Below, piece after piece: positions 21,050-63,085 of a DNA stretch of 64,000 nt; within the stretch, counting starts at the first letter, position 1; each line of letters opens with the position of its first letter. This DNA comes from Spirochaetes bacterium GWB1_60_80 (lineage in GTDB: Bacteria > Spirochaetota > Spirochaetia > Treponematales > UBA12059): positions 16,133 through 80,132 of the forward strand of contig MIAR01000032.1 in assembly GCA_001829185.1 (NCBI GenBank), written 5' to 3'. Position numbers and translations under genes: made by a program. The notes under the pieces were generated by a model. That model had not been told where the DNA came from and ran no database searches. It was given only the letters and a program-made list of their open reading frames with translations.

Positions 21050-22681
21050 TTAGCTCATGTAGTCGTACTCCCAACCGGCCTGCGGCAGGAAATTTTCCTT
21101 GATGTTCCTGGCGCTCACCCAACGCAGCAGGTTCAGCTCGGAGCCAGCCTTGTCATTGGTACCGGAAGCTCTAGCGCCGCCGAAGGGCTGCCGCCCGACT
21201 ACCGCACCAGTCGGCTTGTCATTGATGTACAGGTTGCCGGCCGCATTCGACAAAGCACTAATCGCCTTGACGATATCAACCCGCTCCCGGGCAAAGACGG
21301 CGCCGGTTAAGGCGTAGGGCGACGTTTCGTCGACCAGGCGATAGGCCGCATCGATATCCTTGTCATCATAGACATACACCGTCAGCACCGGTCCGAAGAT
21401 TTCTTCGACCATCGGTCGAGCCTTCGGTTGGCTAGCCAGGATAATGGTCGGTTCGATAAACCAGCCCAGGCTGTCATCGCAAGTACCGCCGGCAATGATA
21501 CTGCACTCCGAATCTAGCCGCGCGGCTTCGATATAGCCAGTAATATTGGCAAAGGCAGCCTTATCGATTACGGCATTCACGAAATTGCCGTAGTCACGTG
21601 GCGAACCCATTTTCAGGCGGCCGGTTTCGGCCACCAGCCGGTCCAGAATTTCCTTAGCAGCCGATTTCGGAACGTAGAGCCGCGAAGCAGCCGAACATTT
21701 TTGACCCTGATACTCGAAAGCACCCCGGATAACCAGGGGAATGGCCGAATCGAAGTCAGCATCAGGATGGATGAAAATGAAGTCCTTGCCACCGGTCTCA
21801 CCGACGATACGCGGATAAGTCCGGTAGTTTTCCAGCCGTTCGCCGATGCCCCGCCACAAAGAATTGAAGACAGCCGTCGAACCGGTGAAATGCAGGCCGG
21901 CAAAATCGTGCTGACTAAGCAGGGTATCGCTGATTTCACCGGCGCGGCCCGGCAGGAAATTGATGACGCCGTCCGGCAAGCCAGCCAAACGATATAGCTC
22001 GGCCAGATACCAGTTGGACAATACTGAACTGGAAGCTGGCTTCCACATCACAACGTTTCCCATTAAGGCTGGCGCCGTCGGTAAATTGGCAGCGATGGCC
22101 GTGAAGTTGAACGGCGTTACCGCGTAGACAAAGCCTTCCAACGGCCGGTATTCCAGCCGGTTCCACTCCTTGGAGGTTGAGGCCGACTGCCGGGCGTAAA
22201 TCGCCGCCGCGAAGGCCGGATTGTTGGTAAAAAAGTCGGCCGTTTCACAAGCCGAGTCGATTTCCGCCTGGAGACTATTCTTGGATTGCCCCAGCATCGT
22301 GGCGGCGTTGAGCCTGTAGCGGTAACCATCACTGATCAAGGCACCGGCCTTGAGGAACACGGCCGCCCGCTCCTCCCACGGTAACTGCGCCCACTCACGC
22401 GCCACCTGTCGGCTGCTTTCCAGCGCCACCTGCAATTCAGCCGGACCGGCCTCGTGATAGACGCCCAACAACAGCGACTTATCGTGTGGAGCTCGGATTT
22501 CCCTAGTCCGCCCGGTAAAAATGCGCCGGCCACCGGCGATAACCGGGATTTCGACCAGCTGAGCGCTCATCCGATCCAGTTCAGCTTCCAGGCGTATGCG
22601 CCCGGCTGAACCAGCTGAATATTCCTGGACGGCTGCATTCTGCCGGCCCGGAACGGAAACGATTCCGTTGTTCATGGTCAT
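21050..22681 (-). CDS. pruA: L-glutamate gamma-semialdehyde (1-pyrroline-5-carboxylate) dehydrogenase
   Basis: 543-aa aldehyde dehydrogenase that oxidises glutamate semialdehyde to glutamate with NAD+, the second step of proline breakdown. Seen: TPFNFTAIAANLP (NAD site and catalytic Asn), HFTGSTAVF, VGETGGKDFIFIHPDAD (general-base Glu), FEYQGQKCSAASRLYVP (catalytic Cys), EEIFGPVLTVYVY. I use the ATG at 22681, with GGAAAGGA upstream; the open frame runs 44 codons further without a ribosome site. No proline dehydrogenase gene is adjacent. The stop codon lies inside the target duplication of MITE-1, so the insertion left the protein intact. Confidence 0.92.
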   Translation of the reverse strand: MTMNNGIVSVPGRQNAAVQEYSAGSAGRIRLEAELDRMSAQLVEIPVIAGGRRIFTGRTREIRAPHDKSLLLGVYHEAGPAELQVALESSRQVAREWAQLPWEERAAVFLKAGALISDGYRYRLNAATMLGQSKNSLQAEIDSACETADFFTNNPAFAAAIYARQSASTSKEWNRLEYRPLEGFVYAVTPFNFTAIAANLPTAPALMGNVVMWKPASSSVLSNWYLAELYRLAGLPDGVINFLPGRAGEISDTLLSQHDFAGLHFTGSTAVFNSLWRGIGERLENYRTYPRIVGETGGKDFIFIHPDADFDSAIPLVIRGAFEYQGQKCSAASRLYVPKSAAKEILDRLVAETGRLKMGSPRDYGNFVNAVIDKAAFANITGYIEAARLDSECSIIAGGTCDDSLGWFIEPTIILASQPKARPMVEEIFGPVLTVYVYDDKDIDAAYRLVDETSPYALTGAVFARERVDIVKAISALSNAAGNLYINDKPTGAVVGRQPFGGARASGTNDKAGSELNLLRWVSARNIKENFLPQAGWEYDYMS

Positions 22682-22931
22682 GTTCCTTTCCAAATACGGG
22701 AAGTCGCAGCCTTTCGCCTGCGGCTCATCGGTTTCCGGCCATGGCTGCCCACCAGCTGTAGGTCCAGTGAAACTCGGAGATGACACTGAGAAGATACGCA
22801 TCCCTACGGACACGTGACGACAACAAAAGCATGCTTCACTTTCTTCGCCATCTGATATATCAGTTTAATATAAATAGCCTTTGATGTCGATTACAAATTA
22901 CTATGTGGTATGAAAATCATACCCAAATAAC

Positions 22932-24868
22932 AAACGAGTAGGAGGCGGGCTTACGCCCCCCTTCCTCTCACACCACCGTACCTACGGTTCCGTATACGGC
23001 GGTTCATGAACTGTATTGAAACTTTACCATTGCTTGGTAAAGGGAAAAAAGCCCAAGCTTCTCGAAGATTTTCACTGGTATTGCCTGATTCATGTGACTT
23101 GCCCCGGCATTCCACCACGCTCCACGACCATTCCACGCCGAGCGCCGGGCTCGATCTTCTTCAAGGCCAAGTTTAAGCAGGTACTTATAGCGTGTTCGCG
23201 GGCGCTTCCATTGCCGCCACAGTATGCACCGAAGTTTTCGACGTATCCATTGGTCGAGCTCTTCAAATATCCCTTTGAATGCGGATAGCTTGAAGTAATT
23301 CACCCAGCCCCGTAAGGAGCGGGTTAACACGGCTATGGTTTTACGTATGTTCCAGCCTCGGGCTTTCCGGCAGAGAGCTTTGACTTTGGTTTTCAGTCGC
23401 TCAATGGATTGTTTGGCGGGTTTCAGTTTTGCTTTAGCTCGCCCGGCGATGGTGTATCCCAAGAACTTACGGTGTTCGGGTCTATCTACCGCGCTTTTCT
23501 CTTCATTCACCTTCAACTTCAATTTCGTGGTGATGAATTGAGTGATCGATCGTTTCACTCGCTCCGCTGCCTTTTGGCTTCCCACATATATGTTACAGTC
23601 GTCGGCATAACGGCAGAATGACAACCCGCGCCGTTCCAGCTCTTTGTCCAGATCGCCCAGCATGATGTTTGATAAAAGCGGCGACAGCGGCCCGCCCTGC
23701 GGCGTGCCTTCCCTTGTTGGTATTACCAGTCCGTCTTCCATGACACCCGCATTCAGGAAACCACGCACCAGCTTCAGCACGCGCTTGTCCTTAACCTTCC
23801 GGGCGACCCGGGCCATCAACATATCGTGATTTACCCGGTCGAAGAATTTCTCAAGGTCTATGTCCACCACCCATGCTTTACCTATTCTGACATACTCACA
23901 GGCTTTCAGTACCGCTTGATGTGCGCTCCTACCTTCCCTGAATCCATAACTTGAATCCGAGAATCCGGCGTCAAAAATCGGGTTGAGTACTTGCAGAACG
24001 GCTTGCTGAATCATGCGGTCGAGCACAATGAGGATGCCGAGTTTGCGTTTCCCTTTGCCGTCTGGCTTGGGAATTTCCACCCGCAGTACAGGTTGTGGTT
24101 GATAGGTGCCTGCCAGCAGGTGCCGCTCAATTTCCTTCCAGTTTCCACGGATATATCCGGCCAGCTCTCTGACATTCATGTCGTCGACGCCGGCGCTACC
24201 TCGGTTACTTACCACGCGTTTGTAGGCTTTTACCAGATTCTTCTTCTCCAACACCCGCATGAGCAATTGCTCATGATCCATCAACGATTCAGTATCTTGA
24301 TGTATCGAGTCCTTTGTTGCCGGGCTTGTCGATGCTGCACCTGTCCACGCTACTCCCGGATTCCGTCCGGTTTGGTTTGCGAGTGCTTCGGGGGTTTCAC
24401 CGTCTCTTTCCAACATCCTGCACGTTCAGCTTGCTGAACGACACCTCGAAACGCAGGGATACATCCACAGCTCATGTTCAGTCCTTCAGCCCCGTTGATT
24501 GAGCCTACTATGACTTCTGCTGACTTCTGGTAATCCATCTCTCCGCCTCACAGCGGAAATAGCCTTTGGGCAGATTGCCAGACCTCCCCGGGTAATGCGC
24601 CCTACTTTCACGCTTATGCCTGCCACATCTACACACAGAGATTCCGGGTAAGATTTGGATTTTGAAGATATTAGCCTTCTCTTCCTCTTTGTGTGCCTCT
24701 TATGGGATTTCTGTTCGTCAAGCCAGCGCTTTGCCTTCACCTTCCTTCAGATTCCACCTCGCGGTGGCGCGGACCTTCGCGAGCACCCTTGGTGTTCAGC
24801 TAACGGTTCCCCTTACCGGGCCCGTACGGGACTTTCACCCGCTAGTAGGTGCGCCCTGCCGGGCGCAC
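22932..24868 (-). mobile_element. Group IIC intron (ribozyme plus encoded maturase)
   Basis: On the minus strand the intron begins with GTGCGCCCGGC at 24868. It has the typical 5' domain I sequence with GTGAAAGTCCCG, encodes a reverse transcriptase, and ends with a domain V (about 22970-23003, CCGCCGTATACGG...TACGGTGG) and domain VI (about 22935-22970, ending CCTCCTACTCG). The 3' border is uncertain by about 5 nt. The 5' border lies 2-3 nt behind the terminator hairpin of tRNA-Gly, the classic landing site of class C introns. Confidence 0.87.
23004..24416 (-). CDS. ltrA: Group II intron-encoded reverse transcriptase/maturase
   Basis: 470-aa intron-encoded protein. The reverse transcriptase domain covers about 55-340, with PKPDGKGKRKLGI, DIDLEKFFDRVNHDML, EGTPQGGPLSPLLSNI and the catalytic YADD box (FCRYADDCNI). 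The maturase X domain contains LRGWVNYFKLS. No HNH endonuclease domain follows, as expected for class C. The first 45 residues up to LMDHEQ may not be translated; ATG at 24281 is an alternative start. The frame is intact, so the intron could still be active. Confidence 0.93.
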   Translation of the reverse strand: MLERDGETPEALANQTGRNPGVAWTGAASTSPATKDSIHQDTESLMDHEQLLMRVLEKKNLVKAYKRVVSNRGSAGVDDMNVRELAGYIRGNWKEIERHLLAGTYQPQPVLRVEIPKPDGKGKRKLGILIVLDRMIQQAVLQVLNPIFDAGFSDSSYGFREGRSAHQAVLKACEYVRIGKAWVVDIDLEKFFDRVNHDMLMARVARKVKDKRVLKLVRGFLNAGVMEDGLVIPTREGTPQGGPLSPLLSNIMLGDLDKELERRGLSFCRYADDCNIYVGSQKAAERVKRSITQFITTKLKLKVNEEKSAVDRPEHRKFLGYTIAGRAKAKLKPAKQSIERLKTKVKALCRKARGWNIRKTIAVLTRSLRGWVNYFKLSAFKGIFEELDQWIRRKLRCILWRQWKRPRTRYKYLLKLGLEEDRARRSAWNGRGAWWNAGASHMNQAIPVKIFEKLGLFSLYQAMVKFQYSS

Positions 24869-57959: not shown

Positions 57960-58007
57960 ATTGGCCCTAGTTACTAATAGCTTTTGTCTTGACTGGCTGC
58001 GTGGCTA

Positions 58008-58242
58008 GGAGTCTGTCGGGCTTTGGAACGCGAAGAATGAGTGTCAGGAAAAATTGAGAAACAAATCTGAAGAATCCAGAATTTCGGGAGATTATTCGCG
58101 CTTTTTTGGCCGATCTTAGCGCCCCACGGCGTAAAATCGGCTCGTCAATCGGGTCATACAGGAAGTATGACTCTCAATCCTCACCAATTTTCCACTCGAG
58201 GCTCGCTTTCGCTGGGCCAAAATCCAAAGTCCGACAGACTCC
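58008..58242. mobile_element. MITE-2 copy A (235 bp, TA duplication)
   Basis: Non-coding element with terminal inverted repeats GGAGTCTGTCGGGCTTTGG and CCAAAGTCCGACAGACTCC. It is flanked by TA on each side (58006-58007, 58243-58244). An inverted copy with about 90% identity by eye lies at 62634-62867. Its right end supplies the first base of the stop codon of the serine dehydratase pseudogene. TA duplication points to an IS630/Tc1-mariner type helper transposase, not found here. Confidence 0.85.
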
Positions 58243-59631
58243 TAACGACAGGAGAACTTGGCGAGTGCCAATCCGCCTTCAGAGGTTTCCCGGTAAATGC
58301 GTGGCAGGTCGTTACCAGTGCGGTTCATGGTATCTACAATCAGGTCAAATGAGATGCGATGCCGTCCATCTGACAGGATGGCATAGGTGTTAGCGTCAAG
58401 TGCCCGTGATGCCGCAAAAGCGTTGCGCTCAATGCAGGGTATCTGAACAAGACCGGCAATCGGGTCGCAGGTCAGGCCAAGGTGATGTTCCAAGCCCATT
58501 TCGGCGGCATATTCGATCTGGTTCGGTGTGCCGCCAAACAATTGGGTGGCGGCCGCGGCTGCCATGGCGCAAGCTGTGCCAATTTCGCCTTGGCAACCGA
58601 CTTGTGCACCCGAGATTGAAGCGTTGAATTTTACCAGATTACCAATCAGGCCAGCAGTGGCTAAGGCGTGAAGTATTTTATTGTCACTGAAACCGTAATG
58701 TACTGACATGGCATACAGGACTGCCGGTACGACACCGCAAGAACCGCAAGTCGGGGCCGTGACGATTTGACCGCCATCGGCATTTTCCTCAGCGACGGCT
58801 AGCGCATAAGCATACAAGCGAGAGCGTCGCTTTAAGGACCCTTTAACAGGTTGTTGAAAAAGCCGGTTGCTTTCTCAACAACCTTAACAATTCCTCGCAT
58901 AGCTTGCGCTATGCTGCGTAATTGTACCGGCTTTTGAAGTGTTGAAAAGCCGCATTCGCGTTTTTCAACACCCTGTTAAAGCTATTAGCTTTGACGAAGT
59001 AGGCAGACGCTTTCCGTGGCAGATTAAGACCGCCGGGCAAGACGCCTTCATTCTCGATGCCTCTCTCGACAGCCGCCTTCATCACTAACCAGACAGCTTG
59101 CAAATGCTCCCAGATGGCCAGGCCTTCGCGGCTGGCCACGTACTCCCAAAAGTTTTCACCAGTGTCGTTGACCTGAGTCAAAACGGCTTACATCGTTGTC
59201 ATATCATACACGGCAGCAGTGGCGTTTAGTTGGCTGGCGTCTGGCATTTGGTCGCCTTCCGCCGAGGCCCAGACAATCTTGCCTCCACCGGTACTATAGG
59301 CCAGTTCCTTGGCCAAGCCGAGTCCCGTACCGTCGAAGGCTTCTAACAGAACGGCGTTTGGGTGGTAAGGCTTAATTGTTTGTGGGTACCAGGCTATTTC
59401 AGTGGGCTGGGGAGCGAACGCCTTGATGATGGCCTGATCTGTCAGATGGCCTTTGCCGGTGGCTGCCAGGCTGCCGTACAGTGTTGCCTTGTAGTGGGCA
59501 GCTGGGTTCTTGACGGCAAAGTGCTTTGCTGCTTTGCGTGGTCCTATGGTATGGCTGGATGAAGGACCGTAGCCGATGGCGAAAATGTCTTTGATTGATT
59601 CCCTGGTAACGCTCTTGATGCCTGGGGGTAT
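58242..59631 (-). pseudogene. sdaA: L-serine dehydratase (single-chain), inactivated three ways
   Basis: Read without interruptions, this is a full iron-sulfur L-serine deaminase. The beta domain has IGYGPSSSHTIGP and ends in YSTGGGK; the alpha domain has [41 protein letters not shown] and GLTCDPIAG. Damage: (1) the start position holds ATA (59629-59631) and no ATG, GTG or TTG occurs between the preceding stop and GPSSSHT; (2) an in-frame TAA at 59188-59190; (3) MITE-1 copy 3 after ...KANSF. Removing the element and one TTAA restores the frame exactly. Confidence 0.88.
58847..58975. mobile_element. MITE-1 copy 3 (129 bp, TTAA duplication) inside sdaA
   Basis: Third copy, same orientation as the others, flanked by TTAA (58843-58846, 58976-58979). 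It interrupts the serine dehydratase reading frame. Confidence 0.92.
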
Positions 59632-59741
59632 ACTAAGCGGCGCTGGAAACCAGTGTCAATCGGCCTGAAGGATAATGAATATTTCTAGCTCAAGCGCAGG
59701 CTACCAGGTAGTCGGGTAACCAGCGCTTGGGTTAGTCGGGA

Positions 59742-61004
59742 TTAGTGAGTATGCTTGGTTGGTTTAGTTTGCACTTCCAGATGCACAATTCGCAAACGGC
59801 TGGCTTGACATATCCATTCGGTAAACACGGCTGTTTTCATGGTCAGCGATTCTTTTTGACCATACAAGCGGATGCTGACATCGTCGTTGACGGCTTCACG
59901 TTCACCGATGATCACCATTAGAGGAATCATCAGCTGATGGGCATCCTGGATCCGGCGACCGAGTGACTCTAGCCTGCTGTCCACCGAGCTGCGTACGCCG
60001 TGCTCGCTGAGTTGCTCGCGTAGTTTTGTAGCGGCAGACAAGCCCAGTTCCGTGATTGGTAACAACCGGATTTGCTCGGGAGCAAGCCAGAACGGTAGCT
60101 GGCCTTGATAATGCTCCAGCAAGAGAGCCAAGGTGCGTTCATAGCAACCTATCGACGAACGATGGATGATCAGGGGTGGTACTGGTTTACCGGCTTGATT
60201 GATATAGGTCATGCCGAAACGGCCAGCCAAAGCAAAATCGAGTTGCAGGGTGAAAAGGGTTTCTTCGCGCCCCCAGGCATCTTTATACTGGATGTCGAGT
60301 TTCGGACCATAGAAAGCCGCCTCGCCAGGGGCAATTCGATATGATTCACCGGTTTTATCGAGCAGTTCCTGAAGCAGGCTTTCCGATTGCTCCCAGGCGG
60401 CTGGGTCATCGATATACTTGCCGCCGACTTCTTCTCCACGGGTTGAAAGTCGGTACCAGCAGCCAGACAGGCCAATACTGGTGGTGATGTATTTTACCAA
60501 AGCCAACGCAGCTAGAAATTCATCAGCCACTTGGTCGGGTCGACAAATGATATGTCCCTCGCTCAAGGTGAATTGTCGGGTGCGGATCAAGCCGTGCAAG
60601 GCGCCGGAGGCTTCATTGCGAAACAGGTAGGATGTTTCGGCATAACGGATAGGTAGATCCCGGTAGCTGCGGCCTTTACGTAGATACAGCTGGAATTGGA
60701 ACGGGCAGGTCATGGGCCGCAATGCCAGAAAGCTTTCTCCTGGTTTTCCCTCATTATCGGGAATGAGGAACATGTTGTCGCGGTAAAGATCCCAATGACC
60801 CGATATTCGATAGAGCTGGTCGCTGGCCAGGAACGGTGTATTGGTATATTCGTAGCCGCGCCTGATTTCCTCGTCTTCGACGAAGCGCTTGAGTATACGC
60901 AGGATGGTGCTGCCGCGTGGCGTCAGCAGGGGCAAGCCTTTGCCGACGACCGGTGACAGATGGAAGAGATCGAGTTCGTGCCCGATTTGTGCATGATCTT
61001 TCAT
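59742..61004 (-). CDS. thrS: Threonyl-tRNA synthetase, short form without TGS and editing domains
   Basis: 420-aa class II synthetase that starts directly at the catalytic domain (DHAQIGHELDLFHL); usual ThrRS proteins are about 640 aa. The three zinc ligands are kept: Cys in RPMTCPF, His in SEGHIICR and His in IIHRSSIG. GEAAFYGPKLDIQYKDA and the C-terminal anticodon domain (LAPEQIRLLPI...) are present. The N-terminal TGS and the Ser-tRNA editing domains are absent, so misacylated tRNA must be cleared elsewhere. Start at 61004 with AAAGGAA upstream. Preceded by a Thr-specific attenuator. Confidence 0.92.
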   Translation of the reverse strand: MKDHAQIGHELDLFHLSPVVGKGLPLLTPRGSTILRILKRFVEDEEIRRGYEYTNTPFLASDQLYRISGHWDLYRDNMFLIPDNEGKPGESFLALRPMTCPFQFQLYLRKGRSYRDLPIRYAETSYLFRNEASGALHGLIRTRQFTLSEGHIICRPDQVADEFLAALALVKYITTSIGLSGCWYRLSTRGEEVGGKYIDDPAAWEQSESLLQELLDKTGESYRIAPGEAAFYGPKLDIQYKDAWGREETLFTLQLDFALAGRFGMTYINQAGKPVPPLIIHRSSIGCYERTLALLLEHYQGQLPFWLAPEQIRLLPITELGLSAATKLREQLSEHGVRSSVDSRLESLGRRIQDAHQLMIPLMVIIGEREAVNDDVSIRLYGQKESLTMKTAVFTEWICQASRLRIVHLEVQTKPTKHTH

Positions 61005-61047
61005 GCAGGTTCCTTTCGACCAAATGAAGGCTACGGCAGGCTGGGCG

Positions 61048-61080
61048 TAAAAAAAAGCCCCGCGCTGCCGCGGGGCTCCT
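61048..61080 (-). terminator. Attenuator terminator in the thrS leader
   Basis: Minus strand AGCCCCGCG-GCAG-CGCGGGGCT followed by eight T, between the leader peptide and the thrS start. The segment GCCGTG near the leader-peptide stop could pair with CGCGGC in the 5' arm (one G-U) and so form a weak antiterminator; this is only a suggestion. Confidence 0.9.
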
Positions 61081-61095
61081 GTCGGTCATGTAGTT

Positions 61096-61173
61096 TTATG
61101 ACACGGCGAAACAAGCTCCACGGCGTGGGAAGGTTCGAGTCGTCGTGGTAGTGTTGTTGCAGTGTTGATTCAT
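61096..61173 (-). CDS. thrS leader peptide (threonine-rich)
   Basis: 25-codon ORF starting MNQHCNNTTTTTRTF and ending in CFAVS-stop. It has five consecutive Thr codons (ACT ACC ACG ACG ACT) and a sixth after one Arg, an extreme density in a tiny ORF just before a terminator and thrS. It starts 7 nt after the -10 box, so the mRNA is probably leaderless. Ribosome stalling at Thr codons when charged tRNA-Thr is low would allow read-through into thrS. Confidence 0.82.
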   Translation of the reverse strand: MNQHCNNTTTTTRTFPRRGACFAVS

Positions 61174-61180
61174 GATAATG

Positions 61181-61209
61181 ACGATAGCCTTCTGTCGCCT
61201 TTTCGTCAA
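61181..61209 (-). promoter_or_regulatory. Promoter of the thrS leader
   Basis: Minus strand TTGACG (61204-61209), 17 bp, TATCGT (61181-61186), inside the gap between asnS and thrS. thrS therefore has its own promoter. Confidence 0.72.
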
Positions 61210-61242
61210 GGGCTGGACTGAATCGTCGATTATGATCTCCTT

Positions 61243-62529
61243 TCATGGCGAACAGCGCTGCGGCGTCCGCGCAAACGGAATGGTTTCGCGGATATGATGC
61301 AGTCCGCAGATCCAGCGTAGCATCCGTTCAATGCCCATGCCAAAGCCGGAATGCGGTACTGAGCCGAAACGCCGCAAGTCGAGGTACCAGTTGAAGGTTG
61401 CTTCATCCAAACCGTGCTCTGCAAGGCGCTGGCGTAAAAAATCGTAATCTGCGGCGCGTTGCCCGCCGGTAATAATCTCGCCGAAGCCGTCAGGCATGAG
61501 GCAGTCGCTGGATAAGGCCACCTCTGGACGTTTGGGATCAGCTTCTATATAAAATGCCCGGCATTGCACGGGATACTTGTAAATGAAAAAGGGTCGGTCA
61601 AAATCAACCGACAGGGCTTCCTCATCTTCCACCGATAAATCGCTGCCCCAGGATAGGTCACGGCCTTTGACCGCCAACCGCTTGATTACATCATCATAGA
61701 GAACAACCTCGAAGCAGCCGCTAGGGAAGCGTAGATCAGACGGGTTACGTTCCAGCAAGAGCAGGTCTGCTTCCCGTTCGGCAGCCACTATTTCGAGGAT
61801 GCCACGAATGAATTGTTCTTGGAACTGCATGTTCTCCTCGGCCTCTACCCAGGCCATTTCCGGTTCGACGCCCCAGAACTCCGTTAGATGGCGGCGGGTG
61901 ATTGATTTTTCGGCTCGGAAACAGGGGCCAAGGCTATAGACTTTTTCTAGGGCCGCAATTCCAGCTTCGGAATACAGTTGGGCACTCTGTGACAGAAAGG
62001 CTGGGTTGCCAAAATAATCTAGCTTGAATAGTTCAGTTGTGCCTTCGCAACTGGTGGGTGTGATCAAGGGAGCGTCAAAGCGGTGGAAGCCGGCGCGCTG
62101 TAGGAAGCTGACGCAGGCGAATTCCAAGCTGCTGCGGATGCGTAAAATAGCGGCTTGCTTGGCCGAGCGGATCCAAAGATGGCGCTGGTCCATCAGGAAG
62201 TCCGGTCCATGGTCTTTGCGTCCGATGGGGAAGCCTGGTTCTGAGGGCAGTATGATGATACTGGTGGCCAGTAATTCGGCTATCGGTTTACCTGTTGGGA
62301 GACTGACCAGGCCAGTCACGGATAGGGCACTTTCCAGTGGCGCGCTTTTGCAGGCGCAAAACTGGTCATCACCGAGTTGGTCGCGGCTACATACCACTTG
62401 GCTGGTACCGTGGCCATCGCGCAGGGTGAGGAAGATGACCTTGCCACGGTCTTGGCGGGAACACAGCCAGCCACGCAGGCTGGCTTGGTCAGAAATTCGT
62501 TCTTGGAGTCGGTCAGTTCGGGTAAACAT
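61243..62529 (-). CDS. asnS: Asparaginyl-tRNA synthetase
   Basis: 428-aa class IIb synthetase. The N-terminal OB-fold anticodon domain (about 10-110: VIFLTLRDGHGTSQVV) is followed by the catalytic domain with motif 2 SLGPCFRAEKSITRRHLTEF, the AsnRS-type EPEMAWVE, and motif 3 GFGMGIERMLRWICGL, ending HIRETIPFARTPQR. The start is ATG at 62529 with AAGGAG 7 nt upstream. The open frame continues upstream only because it runs through the leader and a MITE. Two attenuators precede it. Confidence 0.94.
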   Translation of the reverse strand: MFTRTDRLQERISDQASLRGWLCSRQDRGKVIFLTLRDGHGTSQVVCSRDQLGDDQFCACKSAPLESALSVTGLVSLPTGKPIAELLATSIIILPSEPGFPIGRKDHGPDFLMDQRHLWIRSAKQAAILRIRSSLEFACVSFLQRAGFHRFDAPLITPTSCEGTTELFKLDYFGNPAFLSQSAQLYSEAGIAALEKVYSLGPCFRAEKSITRRHLTEFWGVEPEMAWVEAEENMQFQEQFIRGILEIVAAEREADLLLLERNPSDLRFPSGCFEVVLYDDVIKRLAVKGRDLSWGSDLSVEDEEALSVDFDRPFFIYKYPVQCRAFYIEADPKRPEVALSSDCLMPDGFGEIITGGQRAADYDFLRQRLAEHGLDEATFNWYLDLRRFGSVPHSGFGMGIERMLRWICGLHHIRETIPFARTPQRCSP

Positions 62530-62543
62530 GGTAAGCTCCTTAG

Positions 62544-62574
62544 AAAAAAATAAGGCCGGCTGAACTGCCGGCCT
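62544..62574 (-). terminator. Second attenuator terminator of asnS
   Basis: Minus strand AGGCCGGC-AGTTCA-GCCGGCCT followed by TATTTTTTT; it ends 15 nt before the asnS start codon, so read-through is needed for expression. Confidence 0.9.
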
Positions 62575-62596: not shown

Positions 62597-62886
62597 TCAA
62601 GCCGGAGGCGATATATTATTATTGGCGTTACAAGGAGTCTGTCGGGCTTTGGATTTTGGCCCAGCGAAAGCGAGCCACGAGCGGAAAATTGGTAAGGATT
62701 GAAGGTCATACTTCCTGTATGGCCCGATTGACGAACCGATTTTACGCCATGGGGCGCTGAGATCGGCCAAAAAGCGTGAAAAATCTCCCGAGATTCTGGA
62801 TTCTTCAGATTTGTTTCTCAATTTATTCCTGACAATCATTCTTCGTGTTCCAAAGCCCGACGACTCCTAGGTTGCTTAGACTTCAT
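62597..62886 (-). pseudogene. Second asnS leader peptide, interrupted by MITE-2
   Basis: The 5' part (ATG at 62886, AGGAG 5 nt upstream) encodes MKSKQP. The 3' part encodes NANNNISPPA followed by TGA (62597-62599). The 234-bp MITE-2 copy B lies between. Removing it and one TA joins the parts in frame as MKSKQPSNANNNISPPA, 17 codons with four Asn. At present the 5' part runs into the MITE and stops after 16 codons. Confidence 0.72.
62634..62867. mobile_element. MITE-2 copy B (234 bp), inverted relative to copy A
   Basis: Terminal repeats GGAGTCTGTCGGGCTTTGG and CCAAAGCCCGACGACTCC. The right flank is TA; the left flank reads AA, one base away from the expected TA. It sits inside the second asnS leader peptide. 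Confidence 0.85.
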
Positions 62887-62918: not shown

Positions 62919-62946
62919 AAAAAAAAACGACACCCGAAGGTGCCGT
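62919..62946 (-). terminator. First attenuator terminator of asnS
   Basis: Minus strand ACGGCACC-TTCG-GGTGTCGT with a stable TTCG tetraloop, followed by nine T. It lies 36 nt after the stop of leader peptide 1. Confidence 0.9.
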
Positions 62947-62981
62947 TGCTGGTAGTTACATTGCTGCAGCTACACGACAGA

Positions 62982-63050
62982 TCAGCACCCGTTGTTCGGG
63001 GAGCCGTTATTATTGAGAATTGCATACTTGTCATGAACTGTTCTCTGCAT
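62982..63050 (-). CDS. First asnS leader peptide (asparagine-rich)
   Basis: 22-codon ORF starting MQRTVHDKYAIL, then NNNGSPNNGC and stop. Five Asn codons (AAT AAT AAC, AAC AAC) fall in the last ten codons. The ATG starts 6 nt after the -10 box, so translation would begin at or near the very 5' end of the transcript (leaderless). Followed by an intrinsic terminator. Another, longer frame here (MTSMQFS...) runs through the terminator and is less likely. Confidence 0.82.
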   Translation of the reverse strand: MQRTVHDKYAILNNNGSPNNGC

Positions 63051-63056
63051 GCCAAA

Positions 63057-63085
63057 AGGATAGCAGTGGCGGCACGTTCTGTCAA
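63057..63085 (-). promoter_or_regulatory. Promoter of the asnS leader
   Basis: Minus strand TTGACA (63080-63085), 17 bp, TATCCT (63057-63062). Confidence 0.8.

Follow-up and report, generated by a model that had tools for sequence, protein, structure and literature searches.

Why does a second threonyl-tRNA synthetase gene lie behind a promoter, a very short reading frame rich in threonine codons and a transcription terminator? In the window, i.e., the whole stretch of 64,000 nucleotides analysed here, this arrangement sits on the minus strand between asnS and thrS (Table 1). A first-pass annotation had interpreted it as a threonine attenuator. The answer we favour, with a probability of about 0.87, is that the segment 61209-61049 of the minus strand is a ribosome-mediated transcription attenuator with a leaderless threonine leader, which controls the second thrS; in relatives, the same design is predicted ahead of asnS, of tyrS and of a gene that resembles asparagine synthetase A.

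Table 1. Features of the asnS-thrS region in the direction of transcription (positions are those of the window)
Feature	Position	Strand	Remarks
Predicted promoter of the asnS leader	63057..63085	minus	TTGACA-17-TATCCT
asnS leader 1	62982..63050	minus	MQRTVHDKYAILNNNGSPNNGC, stop; ATG 63050, 6 nt past the -10 box
asnS terminator 1	62926..62947	minus	hairpin 62947-62926; sequence and folding
asnS leader 2, 5' part	62868..62886	minus	ATG after AGGAG; cut by the MITE-like insertion
MITE-like repeat within asnS leader 2	62634..62867	minus	234 bp
asnS leader 2, 3' part	62597..62633	minus	codons N A N N N and stop
asnS terminator 2	62553..62574	minus	
asnS, second asparaginyl-tRNA synthetase	61243..62529	minus	428 aa
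Predicted sigma-70-type promoter of the thrS leader	61181..61209	minus	sequence pattern; -35 TTGACG 61209-61204, 17-nt spacer, -10 TATCGT 61186-61181
thrS leader ORF	61096..61173	minus	MNQHCNNTTTTTRTFPRRGACFAVS, 25 codons; ATG 61173, 7 nt past the -10 box; stop TAA
Predicted thrS antiterminator	61067..61124	minus	GCCGUGG... pairing with CCGCGGC; folding, -26.9 kcal/mol
thrS intrinsic terminator hairpin and T run	61049..61080	minus	hairpin 61080-61053; about -22 kcal/mol
thrS, second threonyl-tRNA synthetase	59742..61004	minus	420 aa, catalytic and anticodon domains only; ATG 61004, 48 nt past the terminator hairpin

The anatomy given in the annotation, TTGACG-17-TATCGT, an ATG 7 nt later, five consecutive threonine codons plus one, a stop, a terminator and thrS, is seen in every part. 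Codons 8-12 of the leader read ACT ACC ACG ACG ACT and codon 14 is ACC, which makes six threonine codons. The use of three distinct codons in the run argues against a simple DNA repeat; the 15 long ORFs of the window encode threonine by ACC (52%), ACG (22%) and ACT (19%). Chance was already held to be unlikely in the annotation, and the shuffles agree. Dinucleotide shuffling gave a short ORF with five consecutive threonines in 11 of 20,000 versions of the region, the run of three asparagines at asnS in 14 of 10,000, and a five-residue run of any amino acid in 3 of 4,000 shuffles of the thrS leader region. Among 3,219 short ATG ORFs from 249 kb of the same genome, three contain five consecutive threonines, namely the thrS leader and one frame counted twice for its two starts. 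Strong terminator-like sites numbered 56 in the window and 65 listed loci of the genome (overlaps unmerged); the matched leaders at these sites were those of asnS and thrS (the latter with two start codons), plus one unrelated tryptophan match. A second open frame of 71 codons (61031-61246, minus strand) overlaps the asnS stop by an ATGA and spans leader and terminator; it is probably due to chance.

At gathering score, neither the T-box (RF00230) nor any other Rfam family matched at the thrS locus, nor did a T-box match in the window; the same holds for the Rfam family Thr_leader (RF00506). Elsewhere on the minus strand of the window, at 24481-24768 and 22667-22791, Rfam matches were to pieces of group II intron RNA and to a molybdenum cofactor riboswitch.

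The folding of the leader was calculated with a ribosome assumed to cover 13 nt past the first base of its A-site codon. With the A site on any of the threonine codons 8-12, the RNA up to the 3' arm of the terminator forms the antiterminator at the energy listed in Table 1. At codon 14 it is weakened to -18.0 kcal/mol, the segment being only partly free, and at the leader stop codon the terminator alone is left (-22.7 kcal/mol). The ribosome-free leader folds into an upstream 1:2 hairpin and the terminator. As modelled, the leader follows the three-state scheme known from classical attenuators. The antiterminator energy was matched by none of 500 shuffles of the stretch from the stall site to the terminator; by the count of arm pairs, a weaker measure, 74 of 500 were equal.

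The proposed sequence of events is as follows. Transcription would start at the leader ATG or a few nucleotides from it, and a ribosome would load on the leaderless 5' AUG. With ample Thr-tRNA it would get to the stop codon and mask segment 2, which leaves the terminator to form. With scarce Thr-tRNA it would stall on codons 8-12, and segment 2 would be free to pair with the terminator's 5' arm. The two folds are calculated, the events themselves proposed. The antiterminator would permit readthrough into thrS, the spare synthetase would be made and charging restored. Attenuation by a leader of threonine codons is supported as the best explanation, since codons, antiterminator, terminator and gene fit together; the threonine attenuator of the annotation thus gains support from the locus itself and also from sister systems at asnS and tyrS.

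A transcript that starts as predicted has no space for a Shine-Dalgarno sequence before the leader ATG. This leaderless 5' end is a prediction, based on the 7 nt that separate the ATG from the -10 box and on a genome-wide excess of such spacings. In the own genome, a promoter with an ATG at 4-8 nt was matched 69 times, against 8 matches of the backwards pattern. Of the 64 distinct matches examined, 40 stand before ORFs with 80 codons or more, and in 27 of these the spacing is exactly 6 nt; by our own reading, these long genes include metG, alaS, murA and coaD. Over 58 genomes of the order, the distance from -10 box to ATG was 5-7 nt in 2,623 matches and 12-14 nt in 932, with 471 and 433, respectively, in the backwards controls; the direction was the same in 58 of 58. 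Judged by these patterns, leaderless starts appear to be common across the order. Leaderless leaders would then conform to a habit of the lineage and may be no special adaptation. The view that leaderless sensors are unusual was therefore right only in part: leaderless starts appear frequent in the order, and leaderless leaders have been published for Sinorhizobium (trpL) and Streptomyces (leuS, trpS, thrS).

In the 420 residues encoded by the thrS behind the attenuator, Pfam recognises the class II core and the anticodon-binding domain only; a TGS or an editing domain was not reported. The zinc-binding cysteine and two histidine positions are retained, as judged from an alignment to the Staphylococcus enzyme. 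Contig C46 of the same genome encodes another ThrRS, a longer one whose N-terminal part we read as an editing domain. The short form was found in one of 390 genomes of the order, and the thrS leader has hence been seen in one genome. In the phylum, 7 of 392 genomes matched the short ThrRS (E up to 1e-95), the other six in open frames of 611-708 codons. A protein search placed it with a metagenomic group of 405-433 aa and 59-68% identity; homologues with a named source measure 398-434 aa and belong to Spirochaetaceae, Spirochaetales and Spirochaeta cellobiosiphila.

A horizontal gain of thrS from Clostridia was suggested by a first scan, in which 80 of 176 relatives were kept, mostly of clostridial type. 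Such a donor is unsupported, because the frame continues open ahead of the match for at least 183 codons at all 78 loci whose upstream sequence sufficed, i.e., these are longer proteins, and because of the short ThrRS group with its named Spirochaetaceae and Spirochaetales homologues. Three threonine-leader matches in these relatives (L017, L035, L039) were dropped, since they lie inside longer ThrRS frames. When the scan was repeated ahead of the frame openings (75 of 80 loci), L037 and L045 showed a Thr-rich short ORF, with four threonines in seven codons, near the ThrRS start of distant relatives. Among 16 distant relatives that were scanned, two (L007, L011) have a T-box immediately ahead of the ThrRS frame. 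On the 3' side of thrS, an L-serine dehydratase gene (58242-59700, minus strand) adjoins a copy of a MITE-like repeat; it is broken and was rejected as a co-regulated gene.

The neighbouring asnS, a second copy beside another AsnRS on contig C46, had been claimed to repeat the architecture of thrS, and so it does: promoter, ATG at the predicted 5' end, asparagine-rich leader and terminator hairpin are all in place. Orthologues of this asnS occur in 5 of 390 genomes of the order, the own one included (E up to 1e-95); in a second family, 3 of the 30 genomes searched had it, the same three. An Asn-rich leader and a terminator precede asnS in all five orthologue genomes, in some of them in tandem. 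The leaders of the relatives are MTTKFAFSAVLNNNGSPASGAA in G001, MRMIHLGADNKGLDNNAPANGGRRVVA in G055, MRLIAGANNNASANNAARTGQRGNDA in G041 and MDFRGSVATLNNRLANNSTPRGCRRGA in G437. With promoters called by eye, the ATG is 6 nt past the -10 box in four of the five genomes and 9-10 nt in G001; the promoters of the own genome and G055 fit the strict pattern, whereas the -10 boxes of G041 and G437 are less regular. The leader peptides diverge between genomes and the asparagine codons are kept.

Antiterminators as stable as those of asnS were found in 12 of 500 shuffles for the own genome, 18 for G001, 1 for G055, 46 for G041 and 0 for G437. The three asnS leaders first folded (12, 18 and 1 of 500 shuffles as stable) follow the stall/stop logic of thrS, with 22, 124 and 135 of 500 shuffles matching by arm-pair count. 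Leaders 1 and 2 of G055 and the G437 leader show this logic, too (1, 3 and 0 of 500 shuffles). Stalling on later asparagine codons (19-20 in the own genome, 20 in G055, 14-15 and 24 in G041) abolishes or weakens the antiterminator, and the ribosome-free leader 1 of the own genome and leader 2 of G001 fold with the antiterminator, not the terminator. The asnS leaders are thus imperfect copies of the classical design. When the relatives' other thrS and asnS loci were scanned, the only matched leader to emerge was the second Asn leader of G001; the scan was incomplete, as leader 1 of G001 escaped it.

In G001 and G055 a second Asn leader, led by a Shine-Dalgarno sequence (MTVKTISNCKSAIRALVNNTNNSHPPV and MIHARRPYHPLSLFAVNNTNSNNPRPA), is followed by a second terminator before asnS; by eye, none was seen in G041 or G437. 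In the own genome leader 2 is interrupted by the MITE-like repeat. The annotation had overlooked this tandem attenuator and the mobile element in it, and also that thrS and asnS are both second copies. With its flanks rejoined, leader 2 would read MKSKQPSNANNNISPPA and obey the same stall/stop logic; with the insertion present, the asparagine codons sit in an open frame that begins inside the repeat. The repeat is about 234-249 bp long, has the ends GGAGTC..GTCGGGCTTTGGA and occurs in the window at 62634-62867 and 58001-58249; further copies or pieces are found at L137, L199, L200 and L203.

The leaderless pattern was matched 176 times in the four relatives G001, G041, G055 and G437. The 112 distinct ones examined comprise 92 at the head of long or open frames and 20 short ORFs. 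A strong terminator comes after five of the short ORFs, and the genes next in line are tyrS, asnS, the asparagine synthetase A-like gene and two of the ABC-F type.

A tyrS match was obtained in 9 of 58 genomes, the own one not among them; eight of the homologues were examined and the partial match L336 was left out. Seven of the eight have a leader with two to four consecutive tyrosine codons and a terminator, two of the terminators being called by eye. The runs are YYY in G001, G023 and G018, YYYY in G020, and YY in G011, G005 and G006; the tyrS of G044 has no leader. Antiterminator folding covered G001, G020, G011, G005 and G006, and 6, 165, 36, 40 and 244 of 500 shuffles, respectively, were as stable. 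Owing to these mixed results, folding backs the tyrS cases partly, and the codon matching bears the weight.

The asparagine synthetase A-like gene is named from weak matches below the cut-off (a 94-residue piece, best E 6.8e-5). In G055 this gene has also a second, Shine-Dalgarno-led leader with NNN; for its two leaders, 130 and 33 of 500 shuffles were as stable as the antiterminator. By energy, these two leaders, the asnS leader of G041 and the tyrS leaders of G006, G020, G005 and G011 do not stand out clearly from shuffled sequence. The ABC-F assignment relies on a scan of a 152-residue piece for G437 and on likeness to it for G055. Ahead of these ABC-F ATPase genes, L238 (G055) and L277 (G437) carry similar leaderless ORFs of 36 codons (..LRS.L....RR.TGA....RGGP......DF and stop) and terminators. 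It is possible that they are attenuators that sense ribosome stress.

How far does the scheme reach? Matched codons stand in the leaders of all five asnS orthologues and of seven of the eight tyrS homologues examined. The annotation had extended it to a general scheme for synthetases in this lineage. This stands insofar as several synthetases in several genera are covered, but not for all synthetases: a matched leader was absent from the eight other synthetase genes inspected in the own genome, which were in part named by reading (two read as proS, aspS, lysS, long thrS, other asnS, alaS, metG). Ahead of the gene read as a second proS, L203 has a promoter-like site (102-131) and a GC-rich hairpin with a T run (146-164), together at 102-164; a Pro-rich ORF was not seen there. 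The attenuated synthetase copies are patchily distributed, and we infer that they are accessory or mobile. A broader view, on which we would place even odds, is that spirochaetes of the order run dispersed leaderless attenuators for asnS, tyrS, thrS and the asparagine synthetase A-like gene, perhaps also for genes of the ABC-F type. The codons of a mini-gene at the 5' AUG would read the charging of one tRNA (or ribosome stress in case of ABC-F), in places with two such devices in series, and the start of transcription would also be the loading of the sensing ribosome.

Of course, the locus can be explained in other ways. Attenuation might hold with a transcript that comes from upstream as readthrough of asnS, so that the leader would not be leaderless. 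thrS indeed follows asnS on the same strand, its leader's -35 box starts 33 nt past the asnS stop, the terminator scan gave nothing between that stop and the box, and the leader frame extends upstream without a stop as far as a TTG. However, the promoter is well placed, with a spacing near that of the long genes (the 27 of 40 at exactly 6 nt), a Shine-Dalgarno sequence is missing close ahead of the leader ATG, and the spacing is similar at the asnS and tyrS leaders. We regard this variant as unlikely, yet as the most serious of the competing explanations. Less probable still is that the hairpin acts as nothing more than a partial terminator beside an incidental ORF; it would fix thrS at a low level, and the threonine run would be there by chance. 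The strength of the terminator would fit, as would the finding of the leader in one genome only and the presence of one other short frame with five consecutive threonines in 249 kb. Against it stand the match of the threonine codons to the gene, with the low count of 11 in 20,000 shuffles, the antiterminator energy and the matched codons at asnS and tyrS.

Control might finally lie with the synthetase, or with an RNA that senses tRNA (a T-box), and not with a translating ribosome. The ThrRS of E. coli controls its own expression, as is mentioned in PMC2965389, and the two distant relatives L007 and L011 have their T-box just upstream of the ThrRS frame. The window, however, is free of T-box matches at gathering score, and the run of threonine codons would be left unexplained; this reading is very improbable. 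Attenuation by a translating ribosome on a leaderless threonine leader remains our choice.

Ribosome-mediated attenuators of the trpL, hisL and pheM/pheST type are classical, and the systems described here share with them the matched codons in a short ORF and the competition of antiterminator and terminator. They differ by the predicted leaderless start, by second-copy or patchily distributed synthetase genes as targets, by the specificity for Asn, Tyr and Thr, by the probable spirochaete host and by the serial double attenuator at asnS. Close parallels are on record. In Streptomyces lividans, according to passages of PMC8079986, leader peptides precede leuS, trpS, alaS and thrS, and those of leuS, trpS and thrS are leaderless; its thrL, as described there, has two threonines and no clear terminator, whereas the leader here has six, a clear terminator and an antiterminator. 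The trpL RNA of Sinorhizobium meliloti begins at its ATG and attenuates trpE(G) (PMC7298713); it resembles our case in having the leader ORF at the 5' end of the transcript and differs in serving a biosynthesis gene, not a synthetase. The His leader of the duplicated hisS/hisZ in bacilli likewise puts a synthetase paralogue under a matched leader, but belongs to Firmicutes, and a leaderless start is unmentioned in the passages of PMC2965389. As to the target, the Anabaena ThrRS T2 is a stress-induced second enzyme with impaired editing that responds to low zinc (PMC4787780); its editing domain is degenerate, while none is reported for the 420-aa ThrRS here. Excerpts of further papers deal with attenuators of Streptomyces trpS and leuS (PMC1262725), candidate cysteine-rich leaders in mycobacteria (PMC4633059) and leader peptides in Campylobacter (PMC3847290), and, from the spirochaete attenuator literature, with leader genes close to start codons (PMC4833913). 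On spirochaete attenuators, leaderless starts in Treponema and asnS leaders, our search, with subscription papers mostly outside its scope, gave nothing on point; on leaders of thrS and asnS it listed two papers, one of which concerns T-boxes. The mechanism is of a known kind; novelty, as far as our searches reach, lies in the lineage, in asparagine as a case, in the arrangement of attenuators in tandem and in a thrS target that lacks editing.

If the interpretation is true, codon-matched, ribosome-mediated attenuation would reach the spirochaetes and extend to the sensing of Asn, perhaps also Tyr, by synthetase genes. The leaders would then constitute a natural set of leaderless sensors for testing what 5'-AUG initiation contributes to coupling. 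They also suggest how a spare ThrRS that lacks editing may stay silent until threonine becomes scarce.
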